Notes under the pieces: model-generated
Told to the model about the DNA's origin: nothing
Databases searched by the model: none
Seen by the model: the letters and a program-made list of their open reading frames with translations, nothing else
Program-made: the position numbers and the translations under genes
NCBI GenBank assembly: GCA_930633525.1
Contig: CAKNFP010000001.1
Coordinates: 3,016,001-3,080,000 of the forward strand
From: Hyphomicrobiales bacterium
Lineage (GTDB): Bacteria; Pseudomonadota; Alphaproteobacteria; Rhizobiales; Beijerinckiaceae
Direction: 5' to 3'
Length of the DNA stretch: 64,000 bases
Part shown: piece after piece, positions 25,424-38,722 of the stretch
Layout of the letters: the number at the start of each line of letters is the position of its first letter
Numbering within the stretch: position 1 is the first letter of the stretch

Positions 25424-25544
25424 GACTTTACCTTCGTCATGTGGTTCTTATCCCGGCGGCCGAGCCGCTGCGGTCGTGAGTTGCCCCACGGCGGAACGCT
25501 GGAGTGCAGCGCTCGGCGGTGGGCTATGGCGCACGGCGCCATAG

Positions 25545-25784
25545 CTATGGGCTAACTGCTCGCCTCATCGCGAGATAGACCTCGACCGCAAGGTCGATTG
25601 GGTCAGGCCCGCTGCAGTGCTTGCAGTGGCCTCCATATTTGGCAGCCGCCGCCTCGCCCGCGAGCAACATTGCCCGGCTGATCTCGGGCTCGTGCGCCGT
25701 CAGCTCGGCCTCGCGCCTGTCCGCCTCCTCGGCCCGCCAGTCCGCCATCTCAGCGGCTTTGGCCCGGTCCCTCCATGATGCCAT
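25545..25784 (-). CDS. Small phage protein with CKHC motif
   Basis: 79 residues from the ATG at 25784; a longer frame has no support. It is a charged helix (WRDRAKAAEMADWRAEEADR) followed by YGGHCKHCSGPDPIDLAVEV, a single Cys pair. No family recognised. Its TAG stop is inside a palindrome (25523-25545) that could end the upstream transcript or belong to the adjacent repeat array. Confidence 0.5.
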   Translation of the reverse strand: MASWRDRAKAAEMADWRAEEADRREAELTAHEPEISRAMLLAGEAAAAKYGGHCKHCSGPDPIDLAVEVYLAMRRAVSP

Positions 25785-25856
25785 GATCGTCCCCCCCCTA
25801 CGGTAATTGACCCGTGCCGTTAACATTTTTCAAGGTCTGTGTTTTCTTGGATGGTG

Positions 25857-26180
25857 AGAGAGCGGGGCGCCCGCGATGTGGGTTGCGCTGGTGGAATGGC
25901 CCCACTCTCTTGGGGTTGGTGGGGTGGGGCGAACCCTCTGTGGTTTGCTCCGAGTTCCTGGCCCCTACCCCCACCAAGTTCTCCTATGACGGCCGTCGGC
26001 CGTCATAGGGTGCGGGCGCTACGACCACGGGTTCCGATATCGCCATGGCCCGCACAAGGGGATGACGTGAGATAGGCGCACGATCTGTGGGTTGCGCCGC
26101 AACATTGTCCCATCTCACGTCAAACGGTTTGGGGCGAGCGCCGCTACGGTGGGTTGCGCTACGCCGATGGCCCGCCCCGG
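25857..26180 (-). repeat. Hairpin guide-like array, distal block (units A-E)
   Basis: Five hairpins, all with a loop of exactly 30 nt. Core positions on the plus strand: A 25880-25888, B 25942-25950, C 26029-26037, D 26089-26097, E 26151-26159. Arms: A 25857-25868/25899-25910, B about 25914-25930/25961-25977, C 26010-26017/26048-26055, D 26063-26077/26108-26122, E 26131-26139/26170-26178. The loop is 11 variable + 9 core (GGGTTGCGC; B and C two changes) + 10 variable ending TG; GGC precedes and GCC follows it except at E and D. Arm sequences differ between units but stay complementary. Strand given as that of the enclosing operon; core there reads GCGCAACCC. Confidence 0.88.
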
Positions 26181-26185
26181 CAGCG

Positions 26186-27151
26186 CTATGCGCGCCGCCA
26201 TTCAAGATAGAGATGTTTCAGCACTCGCTTCTCGACATACCGCAGAGCTCGGTTTGCGACATGCGCGTCGTACGAGTCCTTTCCGGTCTTGGACTCTTTG
26301 ACTGGCAAGCCAAGCGCCTGCGCCTCGTATCGAGCGCGATCGGTAAAGACCTTCTGGTAATAGGTCGCACCGGGGTCATCCGTGCCGAACGGTGATCGGT
26401 ACAGCCCCATGCTGCCAATGACATACTGCAATCCGACGCGGGACACAGAGCGACGGCGCTTGCTGTATCCGTGCTTGATCCAGTCGTCTGCGGACGCCCC
26501 CGCCCCCGGCCGACCCTGGGCTTTTCCGTCGATCACGGCGAGCCCCATCCGCTTCCACACAGCCGAGACGCTCTTGTAGGTGCCCACGTCCCCGCACTCC
26601 CCGACGATGCCGGCAAGCGACATCTCGCCGAGCCCCTTGATGGACTTTGCCCAAGCATGGATCGGGAGGGTGCGGACGAGCTTTACGAGCGACTTCTCAT
26701 AGGCGGCGCGCTGCTTTTCGATGGGCTCGAGTGCAGCAAGGTGCGGGAAGATGTGCCCCGAATACGGATGAGGCTCACCGGCCTTGATCCGATCGAACGC
26801 CGCAGACGCCTCCTTCTTGTCACCGCCAATGGCGCGCCGTAGCAGTGACTTCGCCTGGAGGATCAGCTTTGTCTGTGCCGAGACCATGTCCTGACGCAGC
26901 CGCCAAAATTCGATGATCTGGTCTGTCGCCTCCTGGATCTCGGCTGTCGGTTCGTAGGGTGCCAGTGGGATGATGTCTGGGGTGGCATAGGGAGCGGGCG
27001 ACATGATGGTGGGCGGCGGCGGCGCGCTGGCCCGCTCCCTATGTTTGGGGTTGCTGTTGGCGCGAAATCCATGGGTTGCGCGTGTAGACTGGCCAGCAGC
27101 AGATCTTGAATTCCGGGTGGTCGATTGGGCGATCTCGGCGACGGAAAGCAT
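26186..27151 (-). CDS. IS110/Tnp_20-like (Nop/Tas-like) protein associated with the hairpin array
   Basis: 321 residues from the ATG at 27151, chosen for AGGAG seven bases upstream; an internal ATG (27004) has no ribosome site. Residues 1-60 are low-complexity. Residues 70-175 are helical, probably coiled coil (IIEFWRLRQDMVSAQTKLIL, EKQRAAYEKSLVKLVRTLP). Residues 180-260 hold IKGLGEMSLAGIVGECGDVG then VWKRMGLAVI and a KRRRSVSRVGLQYVIGSMG helix, the helix-hairpin-helix layout of IS110-family C-terminal domains. The IS110 N-terminal DEDD (RuvC) nuclease is absent. A nuclease-free protein of this kind beside an array fits TasA; RNA-guided binding is inferred. It is not bounded by an insertion sequence's ends. 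Confidence 0.72.
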   Translation of the reverse strand: MLSVAEIAQSTTRNSRSAAGQSTRATHGFRANSNPKHRERASAPPPPTIMSPAPYATPDIIPLAPYEPTAEIQEATDQIIEFWRLRQDMVSAQTKLILQAKSLLRRAIGGDKKEASAAFDRIKAGEPHPYSGHIFPHLAALEPIEKQRAAYEKSLVKLVRTLPIHAWAKSIKGLGEMSLAGIVGECGDVGTYKSVSAVWKRMGLAVIDGKAQGRPGAGASADDWIKHGYSKRRRSVSRVGLQYVIGSMGLYRSPFGTDDPGATYYQKVFTDRARYEAQALGLPVKESKTGKDSYDAHVANRALRYVEKRVLKHLYLEWRRA

Positions 27152-27442
27152 GGGTAGTCTCCTGGGGTGGGGTGCTGAGGGCACTTCAGCGTTGGGTTGC
27201 GAATGTTGCCTGGCCCTCAACGAGGGGTGACGATGGGGCGGTCCGGTTAAGGGCTGCGCTGCGCTATTGGCCCCATCGTCATAGAATTGGCTGGCGACAA
27301 TCGATTGGGTTGCGCGGGAACATTGGCCAGCCGAAGTGGGTCGTGGGCTATCGGACCTTGGGTTGCGCCTGATGGATGGCCCACGCATTCAATTGGGGCG
27401 GGCGACAGCTTCATGGGTTGCGCCATCTTCTTGGCCCGCCCC
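26986..27442 (-). repeat. Hairpin guide-like array, proximal block (units F-L)
   Basis: Seven hairpins with 30-nt loops. Cores (plus strand): F 27011-27019, G 27073-27081, H 27194-27202, I 27251-27259, J 27307-27315, K 27360-27368, L 27415-27423. Arms: F 26986-26999/27030-27043 (14 bp perfect), G 27053-27061/27092-27100, H 27176-27182/27213-27219, I 27228-27239/27270-27281 (12 bp perfect), J 27289-27295/27326-27332, K 27342-27348/27379-27385, L 27395-27403/27434-27442. Every unit has GGC before and GCC after the loop. F has a degenerate core (GGGCGGCGG). H to L repeat every 53-57 bp. F and G lie inside the 5' end of the array-associated gene. Confidence 0.9.
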
Positions 27443-27447
27443 GCCGC

Positions 27448-27676
27448 TTACGCGGCTTCCTTCCGAGGGGCGGTCTGCAGCCTCTCCAATTCCTTCACGC
27501 CCATGACCTCGCCGACGCGCTTGCCGTCCGGCACAGATGCCGCGACGCGCTCAAGCCATCGCCCGGTGCGGATCATGGTCGTGCCCTGCGAGAGGTAGTG
27601 CTGGGCGACCGCGAGCACTTCGTCGCCGGTCGCATTCTTCAGCAAAATGGACTTGCCGTTCAGGCGAAGCTCGTAG
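27448..27676 (-). pseudogene. 3' part of IS-interrupted phage gene
   Basis: C-terminal half of the gene whose 5' half is at 29071-29396. Reading continues from the 9-bp target duplication (27668-27676) as YELRLNGKSILLKNATGDEV and ends KELERLQTAPRKEAA. Removing the element and one copy of the duplication gives an uninterrupted frame of 181 residues (546 bases including stop). The stop is 6 bp before hairpin L, so before the insertion the gene was probably co-transcribed with the array. Confidence 0.8.
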
Positions 27677-29070
27677 GAGCTATGGCGGAAAGTGGGTGAT
27701 GCTGGATTGAGAAAGGCGGCGTATCGAGGCGGGTGTCGAGCCTGCCAGAACCTCTTCGAGAGAGCGATACGCCATGAACGCATCTACCAATGTTTTACGC
27801 CTGCGTCAGCCCAATGAGATTGACGATCCCCTGACGGATATTCTGCGAACCGGTGCCCGCAAGTTGCTGGCTCAAGCCATCGAGATCGAAGCCGAGGCTT
27901 ATCTCGCCAGCATGCGCGATCTGAAGCTGCCGGATGGACGCGAACGCCTGGTCCGGCACGGCCATGGGCCGGAACGGACCATTCAGACCGGCATCGGCCC
28001 GGTGGAGGTCAGCCGCGTCAAGATCCGCGATCGTGGTGCTGAGGGAGAGGACCGCATCCGCTTTTCCTCGGCGATCCTGCCGAAATGGGCGCGCCGCACC
28101 AAAAGCCTGGATGCGCTGCTGCCGATCCTCTACCTGCGCGGGCTCTCGACCGGCGACTTCCAGGAGGCGCTCTCAGCCTTGCTCGGCAAGGATGCTCCGA
28201 ACCTCTCGCCCTCCGCCATTACCCGACTGACGGGCGAATGGCAGGCCGAGTACGAGCATTGGCAGGCGCGGGACCTGTCGGCCCGCCGATACGTCTACGT
28301 CTGGGCCGACGGCGTCTATCTCCAGGCCCGGATGGAGGATCAGGCCGAATGCATGCTGGTGCTGATCGGCGCCACGCCGGAGGGCAAGAAGGAACTGGTC
28401 GGCTTCCAGGCCGGGGTGCGCGAGAGCGCCCAGAGCTGGCGCGAGCTTCTCGTCGAGATCAAGCGAAGGGGCCTGTCCATCCCACCCCGGATCGCCGTCG
28501 GGGATGGGGCACTGGGCTTCTGGAAAGCGCTCGACGAGCTCTTTCCCGGCACGCATCATCAGCGCTGCTGGCTGCACAAGACCGCCAACGTGCTCAACAA
28601 GGTGCCGAAATCCGTGCAACCGGGCCTGAAGGCGGCCCTGCGGGAGATCTATCTCGCGCCCACCCGCGCGCAGGCCGAGGTGGCCGTCGATCTGTTTGCC
28701 GAGGCCTACCAGGCGCGCTATCCCAAGGCAGTGGAGTGCGTGCGCAAGGACCAGCGGGCGCTGCTGGCGTTCTATGACTGGCCGGCGGAACACTGGATCC
28801 ATCTGCGCACGACGAACCCAATTGAGAGTGTGTTCGCTACGGTCCGACACCGTACGGTGCGTACCAAGGGCTCGCTGTCGCCGACCACCGCCCGGCTGAT
28901 GGTGTTCAAGCTGGTGATGGCGGCCGCGAAGAGCTGGCGGAGATTGATGGGCGAAAACCAGTTGCCCAAGGTGATCGCCGGTGTCAGGTTTAAGGACGGC
29001 AGCGAGGTCATTCCGATGCCGACAAACAGCGCCGCCTGATCGGCCCGTCACCCAATATCCATCATAGCTC
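27677..29070 (+). mobile_element. IS256-family insertion sequence (1394 bp)
   Basis: Imperfect terminal inverted repeats: left end starts GAGCTATGGCGGAAAGTGGG, right end read inward starts GAGCTATGATGGATATTGGG; 19 of the first 23 bases match. A 9-bp direct duplication AGCTCGTAG flanks it (27668-27676 and 29071-29079), within the 8-9 bp range of IS256 elements. It holds one transposase gene and has interrupted a prophage gene. The perfect duplication suggests a recent insertion. Confidence 0.93.
27774..29039 (+). CDS. IS256-family (Mutator-type) transposase
   Basis: 421 residues, usual for the family. The DDE residues are visible: Asp in VYVWADGVYLQ (about 187), Asp in RIAVGDGALGFW (about 246) and Glu in TTNPIESVFA (about 352), with the C/D-x-x-H-like QRCWLHKTANVL block between. 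The N-terminal part carries the DNA-binding region. It should catalyse copy-out or cut-and-paste movement of the element. No frameshift is seen, so the element is probably active. Confidence 0.95.
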   Translation: MNASTNVLRLRQPNEIDDPLTDILRTGARKLLAQAIEIEAEAYLASMRDLKLPDGRERLVRHGHGPERTIQTGIGPVEVSRVKIRDRGAEGEDRIRFSSAILPKWARRTKSLDALLPILYLRGLSTGDFQEALSALLGKDAPNLSPSAITRLTGEWQAEYEHWQARDLSARRYVYVWADGVYLQARMEDQAECMLVLIGATPEGKKELVGFQAGVRESAQSWRELLVEIKRRGLSIPPRIAVGDGALGFWKALDELFPGTHHQRCWLHKTANVLNKVPKSVQPGLKAALREIYLAPTRAQAEVAVDLFAEAYQARYPKAVECVRKDQRALLAFYDWPAEHWIHLRTTNPIESVFATVRHRTVRTKGSLSPTTARLMVFKLVMAAAKSWRRLMGENQLPKVIAGVRFKDGSEVIPMPTNSAA

Positions 29071-37189: not shown

Positions 37190-37549
37190 ATGGCCGCGTC
37201 GAATGACAACATCGGGCCGGACGAGCCCCTTCGCTTGGTGGATGCTGTGCGCTATGGGTTCCCGCACGGGGGCATGACCTTGAGCGGCCTCCGTAAGGAA
37301 GCGAAGCGGGGACGGCTGGCAGTCGAGCGAATCGCTGGCAAGGACTTCACTACGCTCAGGGCAATTGAGGAGATGCGTCGGCTATGCCACGTCCAGCGAA
37401 GGGCGCCCGGCTCTGGCTCCGGAAGGAGCGGATCGATAAGCGAACGGGCAAGCGCATCGCCAATGCTGCCTGGTTCATTCTCGACGGCGGCGAGCATATC
37501 CCCACGGGATGCGCTGCTGGCGAAATTGAGCAAGCGGAAAAGCGCCTAA
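37190..37549 (+). CDS. Excisionase-like protein
   Basis: 119 residues. The N-terminal 65 residues (EPLRLVDAVRYGFPHGGMTL, SGLRKEAKRGRLAVERIAGK, DFTTLRAIEEM) are the winged-helix pattern of small proteins placed before tyrosine integrases in Rhizobiales islands and phages. The C-terminal half is Ser/Pro/Arg-rich and is encoded in the same DNA as the integrase start: 166 bases overlap in different frames, a layout typical of this gene pair. It should direct excision. Its N-terminus has the SNDN variant of the tail motif. Confidence 0.75.
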   Translation: MAASNDNIGPDEPLRLVDAVRYGFPHGGMTLSGLRKEAKRGRLAVERIAGKDFTTLRAIEEMRRLCHVQRRAPGSGSGRSGSISERASASPMLPGSFSTAASISPRDALLAKLSKRKSA

Positions 37550-38589
37550 AAGAATATATAGCAGAAAAATACAGGCCGGAGCGGCGAGAGCGAGATATCG
37601 AACGCATCGATATTGCCGATGTGCTTTCGATTTACGACGACGATACACGCCAGCGTCAGGCTAATCTACGCACATTCGATCAGCGCTTGAGCCGCCTCGC
37701 CGAATGGTGGGGCGGCAAAATGCTGTCCGACGTCACGGGCGAATCATGCCGCGCCTACGTCGAGCATCGCAGGGCAGTTGAGCTGCAGCGCCGCGCCACA
37801 GCCAAGCACCGCCCGAAGGGCACGCCCACCGCCCCGACGGCTGGAGGCGCGCGCCGGGATCTCGAGGACCTGCGGGCCGCAGTCAACCACCACGCGAAAC
37901 AGGGTCTACATCGGGGTGTCGTGAAGGTCGCGCTTCCCGAGAAGGGAACTGCCCGCGACCGATGGCTGACACGCGATGAAGCGGCGCGGTTGCTCTGGGT
38001 GTGTTGGCGGGCCCGAGAGGAGCAGAAGCGGCATCGGGGCCCGGATACCGGCAAAGTGCTGCCCACCGACAAGCGGCCGTTGCGGCACGTCGCCCGCTTC
38101 ATTCTCCTGGGCCTCTACACCGGATCGCGTGCCGCTGCATTGGCCGCTGCGTCCCCGTCGAAAGCCATCGGGCGGTCCTATGTCGACCTCGATCGCGGGA
38201 TCTTCTATCGGCTTGCTGAGGGGAAGAAGGCGACGAACAAGCGTCAGCCTCCGGTTCCCATCCCCCCTCACCTTCTTGCTCATATGCGGCGATGGCAGGC
38301 CAAGGGAATCGCAGGCGAGCACTTCGTTCAATGGAACGGCAAGCCTGTCATTTCGGTGAAGACGGCGTTCGGGACTGCAGTGGAAAAGGCGGGCCTGGAC
38401 GGGAAAGTCACCCCCCACACCCTTCGGCACACCGCCGCGACTTGGCTCATGCAGAATGGCGTACCAATCTGGACGGCGGCCGGGTTCCTGGGAATGTCGC
38501 CTGAGATGGTCGAGAGGACTTATGGGCACCACCACCCCGACTATCTTGCCGAGGCTGTCCGGGGCTTCAAACCAAAGAAATCAGCGTAA
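37384..38589 (+). CDS. int: Tyrosine recombinase integrase
   Basis: 401 residues. The start MPRPAKGARLWLRKERIDKR with a Gly-Gly-rich DNA-binding arm is usual for this family. Catalytic residues: Arg in YTGSRAAALAA (about 247), Lys in the beta hairpin GKKATNKRQPP, HTLRHTAATWLM (His-x-x-Arg, about 343-346), His/Trp-type site WTAAGFLGMS and nucleophile Tyr in ERTYGHHHPDY (about 379). It ends 57 bp from tRNA-Ile2, so insertion at that tRNA is likely. Confidence 0.95.
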   Translation: MPRPAKGARLWLRKERIDKRTGKRIANAAWFILDGGEHIPTGCAAGEIEQAEKRLKEYIAEKYRPERRERDIERIDIADVLSIYDDDTRQRQANLRTFDQRLSRLAEWWGGKMLSDVTGESCRAYVEHRRAVELQRRATAKHRPKGTPTAPTAGGARRDLEDLRAAVNHHAKQGLHRGVVKVALPEKGTARDRWLTRDEAARLLWVCWRAREEQKRHRGPDTGKVLPTDKRPLRHVARFILLGLYTGSRAAALAAASPSKAIGRSYVDLDRGIFYRLAEGKKATNKRQPPVPIPPHLLAHMRRWQAKGIAGEHFVQWNGKPVISVKTAFGTAVEKAGLDGKVTPHTLRHTAATWLMQNGVPIWTAAGFLGMSPEMVERTYGHHHPDYLAEAVRGFKPKKSA

Positions 38590-38646
38590 TCGTTGGAGAT
38601 TTCATTGGAGATTGAGATTGGCGCTTTTGTAAGCACTTGAAATAAT

Positions 38647-38722
38647 TGGTGGGCCCGGCAGGACTCGAACCTGCAACCAGACCGTTATGAGCGGTCGGCT
38701 CTAACCATTGAGCTACAGGCCC
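38647..38722 (-). tRNA. tRNA-Ile2 (anticodon CAU, lysidine type); probable attachment gene
   Basis: 76 nt on the minus strand, CCA encoded. Acceptor GGGCCTG/CGGGCCC, D arm GCTC...GAGC, anticodon stem GACCG/CGGTC with loop CTCATAA, T arm GCAGG-TTCGAGT-CCTGC. The CTCATAA loop is that of isoleucine-2 tRNA (like E. coli ileX) rather than elongator Met. Its 3' end faces the integrase, so the crossover is probably in the 3' half and the prophage keeps or restores a complete gene. The other attachment copy would be beyond the left edge. Confidence 0.88.

Follow-up and report, generated by a model that had tools for sequence, protein, structure and literature searches.

What is the role of an array of twelve hairpins that surrounds a single gene within a prophage? 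This question is raised by positions 25857-27442 of a 64,000-nucleotide stretch of DNA from a Hyphomicrobiales bacterium (assembly GCA_930633525.1, contig CAKNFP010000001.1, positions 3,016,001 to 3,080,000 of the forward strand; hereafter the window), for which the original prediction had proposed a TIGR-Tas-like organisation. Our analysis places the locus, on sequence grounds, among the stem-loop TIGR arrays that accompany a TasA-type effector; this membership is well supported, and the function is one that we infer. Taken as a whole, the explanation that we consider highly probable is that the hairpin array of the prophage supplies guides for a Nop-domain effector lacking a nuclease. Two observations go beyond the original prediction, and both would be new to a specialist: some of the units lie in frame within the gene, and the spacers differ between relatives whose stems are retained.

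Architecture and recurrence of the hairpin array

All twelve predicted hairpins are present, each with a loop of 30 nt; seven precede the region that encodes the conserved domain of the protein, and the other five follow the gene (Table 1). The meaningful strand proved to be the minus strand, i.e. that of the gene. On this strand each unit has the structure stem-CCA-N9-YG-NNNN-CCA-N9-YG-stem', the 30-nt loop comprising CA-N9-Y-G-NNNN-CCA-N9-Y (NNNN is often CAAC). The unit thus carries two spacers of 9 nt, each with a CCA (box C) before it and a YG (box D) after it, and the original division of the loop into 11 variable, 9 conserved and 10 variable bases had to be revised, since some of the "variable" bases are box bases. 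The stems vary from unit to unit, with variable palindromes where edge repeats would stand. A CRISPR array was also considered and rejected: there are no identical 25-36-nt direct repeats, the common stretch is approximately 9 nt, and the stems differ between units.

An automatic rule, combining a stem score with the box C/D pattern, recovered 11 of the 12 units; a mismatch in its closing pair kept unit 9 from being detected. Over the whole window the pattern matched 12 times on the minus strand, with 11 of these matches falling within the array, and at four scattered places on the plus strand. When the units were folded singly, 9/12 reached z <= -2.0 relative to shuffled sequences.

This organisation matches that of the stem-loop TIGR arrays of TasA described by Faure et al. 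2025 (PMC12045711). In those arrays each of two spacers of 8-12 nt is bounded by boxes C and D, variable palindromes replace the edge repeats, and the linker can keep its length and sequence; the arrays accompany TasA and are processed to single, whole hairpin units that are cut at variable positions. The example presented, from the gut of Peromyscus leucopus, has 13 stem-loops. The 36-nt product expected in the original prediction is reported there for dual-repeat arrays.

The array is not confined to the window. A profile built from 38 homologs of the protein yielded 23 loci from genome contigs and, from viral contigs, the best 80 of 132. In 92 distinct homologous loci, hairpins were counted by stem score (>=9) for loop lengths of 22-49 nt, without a motif filter: 376 had a loop of 30 nt, vs 33-87 at each other length, and the box bases appeared unasked in these 376. 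With the pattern applied, 659 gene-sense units were detected in 89 of 107 sequences, vs 51 on the opposite strand and 24 after mononucleotide shuffling. After 11 duplicate loci had been dropped, a unit was present in 78/96 loci and three or more units in 64/96, in agreement with the expectation of homologous arrays beside related genes. Four of the five unit-less loci that were inspected (L057, L074, L083 and L106) carry arrays with other loop lengths, and in L083, L106 and L057 part of the loop forms, by eye, a small hairpin (e.g. GCCGAAAGGC; GCC-GAAA-GGC before CCA); in the fifth, L012, no array of another loop length was seen.

The units share the orientation of the gene. When the stems of 556 non-redundant units were read on the gene strand, 234 G-U pairs were found vs 138 A-C mismatches, an excess which fits the gene strand as the RNA. 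The first base of box D (C or T) covaries between the edge and loop sides (r = 0.89, 58 loci), while covariation of the third base of box C is weak (r = 0.29). In TasR arrays the repeats begin with UG and end with CCA, and edge motifs covary with loop motifs, in keeping with the requirements of a symmetric dimer (PMC12045711).

Spacers differ between retained stems

Comparison of the window with its closest same-genus prophages (loci L108 and L109) revealed stems that are 95-97% identical, vs spacers that are 35-43% identical. With L108 the window shares 227/238 stem positions, 87/96 loop-repeat positions and 753/799 positions of the domain-coding DNA, vs 38/108 and 38/108 spacer positions; the corresponding values for L109 are 230/238, 88/96 and 740/799, vs 45/108 and 46/108. 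In the more distant L111 they are 179/238, 77/96 and 644/799, vs 33/108 and 25/108.

The same comparison was extended to 115 pairs of units matched by their stems, taken where two loci had three or more such matches (spacers were scored as similar at 7 or more of 9 positions; in some of the 115 rows several units were matched to one similar stem). Both spacers were dissimilar in 102/115 pairs and the result was mixed in 2/115; both were similar in 11/115, of which 4 stem from a single genome with two copies (L072, L073). The 115 pairs are therefore not independent events. Unrelated units share 26% of bases. Among the loci compared, spacers were rarely shared beyond near relatives. Spacer A (ATGAAGCAT) is common to units at L145 6143-6198 and L009 3649-3700, which have different spacers B and are otherwise different; this represents either half-sharing between distant phages or chance.

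Since each position keeps its own stem, replacement of whole hairpins does not explain the spacer differences. Either active rewriting or recombination over short tracts, drawing on a pool that was not seen, would explain the pattern. Phage genomes are mosaics, and ordinary homologous recombination among phages with the same stems, with no dedicated rewriting mechanism, has in our view about an even chance of being the explanation. It accounts for the units that are identical between relatives (Table 1), as expected of alleles drawn from a pool, and for the one unit in which L108 and L109 have spacer B alone in common. It is opposed by the almost complete lack of spacer sharing outside near relatives among the loci compared, and by the stems and loop repeats, 91-97% identical between the window and L108 or L109, that flank the differing spacers: with retained sequences on both sides, recombination tracts of approximately 20-30 nt are required. 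Spacer change between retained stems is described neither in the part of PMC12045711 available to us nor in that of PMC12385481.

Putative guide units within the tas coding sequence

A Shine-Dalgarno-like AGGAG followed by ATG (27163-27149) and the peptide MLSVAEIA are retained in L108, L109 and L111. Downstream of this peptide, units 6 and 7 lie in frame, and the Nop domain follows. Such an overlap could be merely apparent if translation started past the array and the open frame were an accident of GC-rich DNA. We consider this improbable. Among stops lying wholly within spacers (508 spacers up to 500 nt upstream of the domain and 188 downstream), those upstream number 14 in the tas frame vs 54 and 51 in the other frames (p 4e-6), whereas downstream spacers have no such bias (16, 14 and 15). 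Analysed per locus (n=69), the tas frame was below the mean of the other frames in 43 loci and above it in 7, with 19 ties; with one locus per sequence cluster (n=62), it had fewer stops in 37, more in 7, and 18 were tied. The start and N-terminal peptide retained ahead of units 6 and 7 point in the same direction, as does the coding sequence annotated by the depositors of phage RHph_X2_25, which spans three of its eight units. In favour of an apparent overlap, a simple rule placed a unit between a Shine-Dalgarno-preceded ATG and the domain in only 31/78 loci, and L005, L010 and L028 are among the loci that have such an ATG after in-frame units.

Neighbouring units are spaced at multiples of three in 126/282 cases upstream and in 21/49 downstream. 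A PA.ICA-like motif, picked after the alignment had been viewed, lies near the N terminus in 17/38 homologs. As far as can be read from the DNA, the in-frame embedding of upstream units in the tas coding sequence is general across the family. It is described neither in the consulted part of PMC12045711 nor in that of PMC12385481.

The Tas-like protein

The original prediction had linked the locus to Tas by organisation only; the protein itself now extends this link. In the predicted model a Nop/Tnp_20-like domain occupies approximately residues 64-321 and a coiled coil is predicted, model confidence being low before about residue 60 and over the residues that correspond to units 6 and 7. Such a fold had been anticipated. 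When the family profile was compared with PDB, TasR was the sole chain at E<=1 (E 3e-11), and structure comparison of the predicted fold ranked TasR and TasH first, followed by IS110; tested in this way, the protein stood closer to Tas proteins than to either IS110 or Nop5. The absence of DEDD and HNH domains noted originally was borne out, with no Pfam match to RuvC or HNH (E<=0.1) and none to DEDD_Tnp_IS110 in the 38 homologs. The window protein is thus predicted to be TasA-like, with a Nop domain and no detected nuclease domain.

It is very unlikely that the protein is instead a degenerate IS110 transposase, with hairpins that are relics of bridge-RNA-like or insertion-end sequences and have no array function. 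Its relatives are labelled "transposase" in PHROGs, weak Transposase_20 matches occur in 22/38 homologs (best E 3e-4; for the window protein a sub-threshold match is the only one in Pfam), and IS110 structures rank next after Tas. Against this stand the lack of a DEDD domain in the homologs, TasR as the sole sequence match in PDB, and an array whose fixed spacer length, retained stems and presence in most of the loci do not resemble decay. Slightly less probable still is pairing of the spacers with RNA, as in box C/D small nucleolar RNAs, to regulate or mark transcripts: the protein is Nop-like and boxes C and D are present, but the near-complete spacer difference between same-genus relatives does not fit a conserved RNA target, and the characterised TasR acts on DNA, with no activity on RNA (PMC12045711).

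Proposed function and search for targets

The twelve hairpins are likely transcribed together with the tas-like gene, and the transcript would be cut into guide RNAs, each loading a dimer of the protein. The protein would then be held on DNA, without cutting, where the two strands match the two spacers, most likely as a means of blocking rival mobile DNA. Because units 6 and 7 lie within the message, their excision would destroy it, and guide production could thereby limit synthesis of the protein.

More tentatively, the locus may represent a TIGR subtype in which guides lie within the effector coding sequence (the message serving as template or guides) and a dedicated mechanism rewrites the paired spacers in situ, with the hairpins fixed. 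This is a possibility that we rate well below the general explanation. If true, it would constitute a reprogrammable, self-limiting guide cassette whose targets change without the gain or loss of units.

Several observations weigh against guide supply to a nuclease-less effector. In structure the protein resembles IS110 not much less than it resembles Tas, and a weak NucS_C match (E 0.05) occurs in one of the 38 homologs. Three of the twelve window units fold weakly relative to shuffled sequences (z -0.4, -1.3 and -1.6), and 18/96 loci have no unit with a 30-nt loop. A Mutator-family (IS256-type) element, inserted approximately 235 bp upstream of unit 1 and missing there in both same-genus relatives, might weaken transcription of the window copy. 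Finally, no convincing target was found in the window prophage, sibling prophage regions, four same-genus genomes and 50,697 phage records.

Two scans addressed the phages themselves. The first compared 43 spacer pairs of four same-genus loci (one spurious L109 pair included, window unit 9 left out) with the window and homologous loci, and the second compared corrected pairs with 344 kb of window and sibling prophage regions; with both geometries and gaps of 0-2, nothing was obtained at 17 or 18 of 18 positions. At 16/18 the 344-kb scan gave 9 and 8 places vs 3.8 for shuffled pairs, several of these being one site counted for two identical spacer pairs and some lying within the unit's own array. 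The best match of the eight RHph_X2_25 units to their own genome was 15/18. The four same-genus genomes were searched with 43 joined targets (gap 0), together with two 18-mers as controls; both controls were recovered and no target matched at 18/18; four matched at 17/18 in five places (approximately 2 estimated by chance, with a seed that may miss 17/18 matches).

In an order-wide search of 397 genomes with 111 targets, matches were listed to E 0.18, an exact 18-nt match having an E of about 0.3-0.8; among the matches listed, 19 were exact over 19-21 nt, and two of these 19 covered the whole target in register, vs approximately 2.5 expected. Exact patterns of three units were compared with IMG/VR: the first matched 16 contigs, in several unrelated open frames, and the other two matched 1 and 2 contigs, two of these being inspected around the site only. 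In the annotated phage records (gap 0; 12 window and 8 RHph_X2_25 units; a control 18-mer was recovered) the sole exact in-register 18/18 match was that of window unit 1 in a DNA polymerase gene of three Enterococcus phages. It is implausible as a target, as the host does not fit and about 1.3 such matches are estimated by chance for 20 units. The RHph_X2_25 unit at L145 6033 matches at 17/18 a Cas4/RecB-type exonuclease gene of many Septimatrevirus-like phages (L148-L151, 601-621); this is a lead only, not beyond chance, and equally good matches occur out of register.

The origin and change of the arrays, their targets and the role of the nuclease-less TasA are questions that the TIGR-Tas authors leave open (PMC12045711). 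The orthologous arrays analysed here, with exchanged spacer pairs and retained stems, boxes and unit order, show a pattern for which any mechanism of acquisition has to account, and the in-frame overlap of guide and effector suggests a built-in self-control that is easily tested. RHph_X2_25 and Sinorhizobium americanum, its source, form a practicable phage-host pair.

Prophage setting

The array lies in a mobile-element context, as indicated by the prophage genes around it in the window (terminase, primase, helicase, sliding-clamp and integrase), the 80 homologous loci on viral contigs and phage RHph_X2_25. To the right of the prophage there are host-like genes (carB, rpoD, dnaG, etc.), and an integrase gene adjoining a tRNA gene likely marks the attachment site (Table 1). 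Two same-genus genomes contain regions collinear with pieces of the window (80-96% identity); at this threshold L111 has only two pieces in common with the window outside the tas locus. Genome G015 carries two tas loci (L108 and L111), whose spacers differ from each other and whose proteins are 95% and 81% identical, respectively, to that of the window.

In Rhizobium phage RHph_X2_25 (MW960032.1, L145 5569-7087) there are eight clear units, three weaker matches having been discarded by eye, and a tas gene annotated as a hypothetical protein; repressor and integrase genes are also annotated. Between units 10 and 11 of the window (25983-26009) lies a perfect 13-bp palindrome with a 1-nt centre (CCTATGACGGCCG/CGGCCGTCATAGG), nearly unchanged in L108 and L109, which may be a protein-binding site. 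An Rfam search of 25500-27700 gave no match at E<=1, and a promoter search gave one site vs 1.2 in shuffled sequences.

Table 1. Features of the window locus, and arrays with other loop lengths in homologous loci
Feature	Position	Strand	Remarks
tas-like gene, 321 aa	26186..27151	-	N-terminal MLSVAEIA... peptide, stretch of units 6-7, coiled coil, Nop/Tnp_20-like domain
AGGAG, Shine-Dalgarno-like	27159..27163	-	retained in L108, L109, L111
Unit 1, stem-loop with two 9-nt spacers	27395..27442	-	
Unit 2	27342..27385	-	
Unit 3	27287..27334	-	spacers 17/18 identical to L109
Unit 4	27228..27281	-	both spacers identical to L109
Unit 5	27174..27221	-	
Unit 6	27052..27101	-	in frame within tas open reading frame; both spacers identical to L109
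Unit 7	26986..27043	-	in frame within tas open reading frame; loop repeat degenerate; both spacers identical to L108
Unit 8	26131..26178	-	directly downstream of tas-like gene
Unit 9	26063..26122	-	closing pair mismatched
Unit 10	26010..26055	-	
Unit 11 (core)	25926..25965	-	5 uninterrupted pairs only, then bulge; stem continues beyond
Unit 12	25857..25910	-	
Mutator-family (IS256-type) transposase element, 1394 bp	27677-29070		9-bp flanking repeat AGCTCGTAG
Phage integrase gene adjoining tRNA-Met gene	37384-38722		likely prophage attachment site
Arrays with other loop lengths	L083 4862-6841; L106 2999-3889; L057 216-527; L074 688-1967		

Comparison with known systems

Box C/D small nucleolar ribonucleoproteins (Nop5) have in common with the locus the Nop fold and the C and D boxes beside the guides. 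The IS110 transposases with bridge RNA share the C-terminal Tnp_20/Nop-like domain and tandem guides in a loop; here there is no DEDD domain, and many units replace one two-loop RNA. The omegaRNA of TnpB is a single RNA positioned at the gene's 3' end, in contrast to the several independent, putative guide hairpins that lie in frame within the 5' portion of a gene for a Nop protein. A guide RNA cut from the message of its own effector, as probably occurs here, is the point of likeness with TnpB (as the title of PMC10278001 has it).

Closer are the dual-repeat TIGR arrays with TasR or TasH, which share UG...CCA boxes in the loop and at the edge, tandem spacers of approximately 9 nt and a symmetric Nop-domain protein. 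The locus differs from them in having position-specific stems rather than a constant edge repeat and no nuclease domain that could be found, and a 36-nt product is not expected. The closest counterpart is the stem-loop TIGR array with TasA (PMC12045711), which has the same two spacers bounded by boxes C and D, variable palindromes and a TasA without a nuclease. The arrays analysed here are distinguished from it by spacers of 9 nt and loops of exactly 30 nt, by their occurrence in (pro)phages of Hyphomicrobiales and others, by units lying in frame within the tas coding sequence, and by spacers that differ between retained stems.
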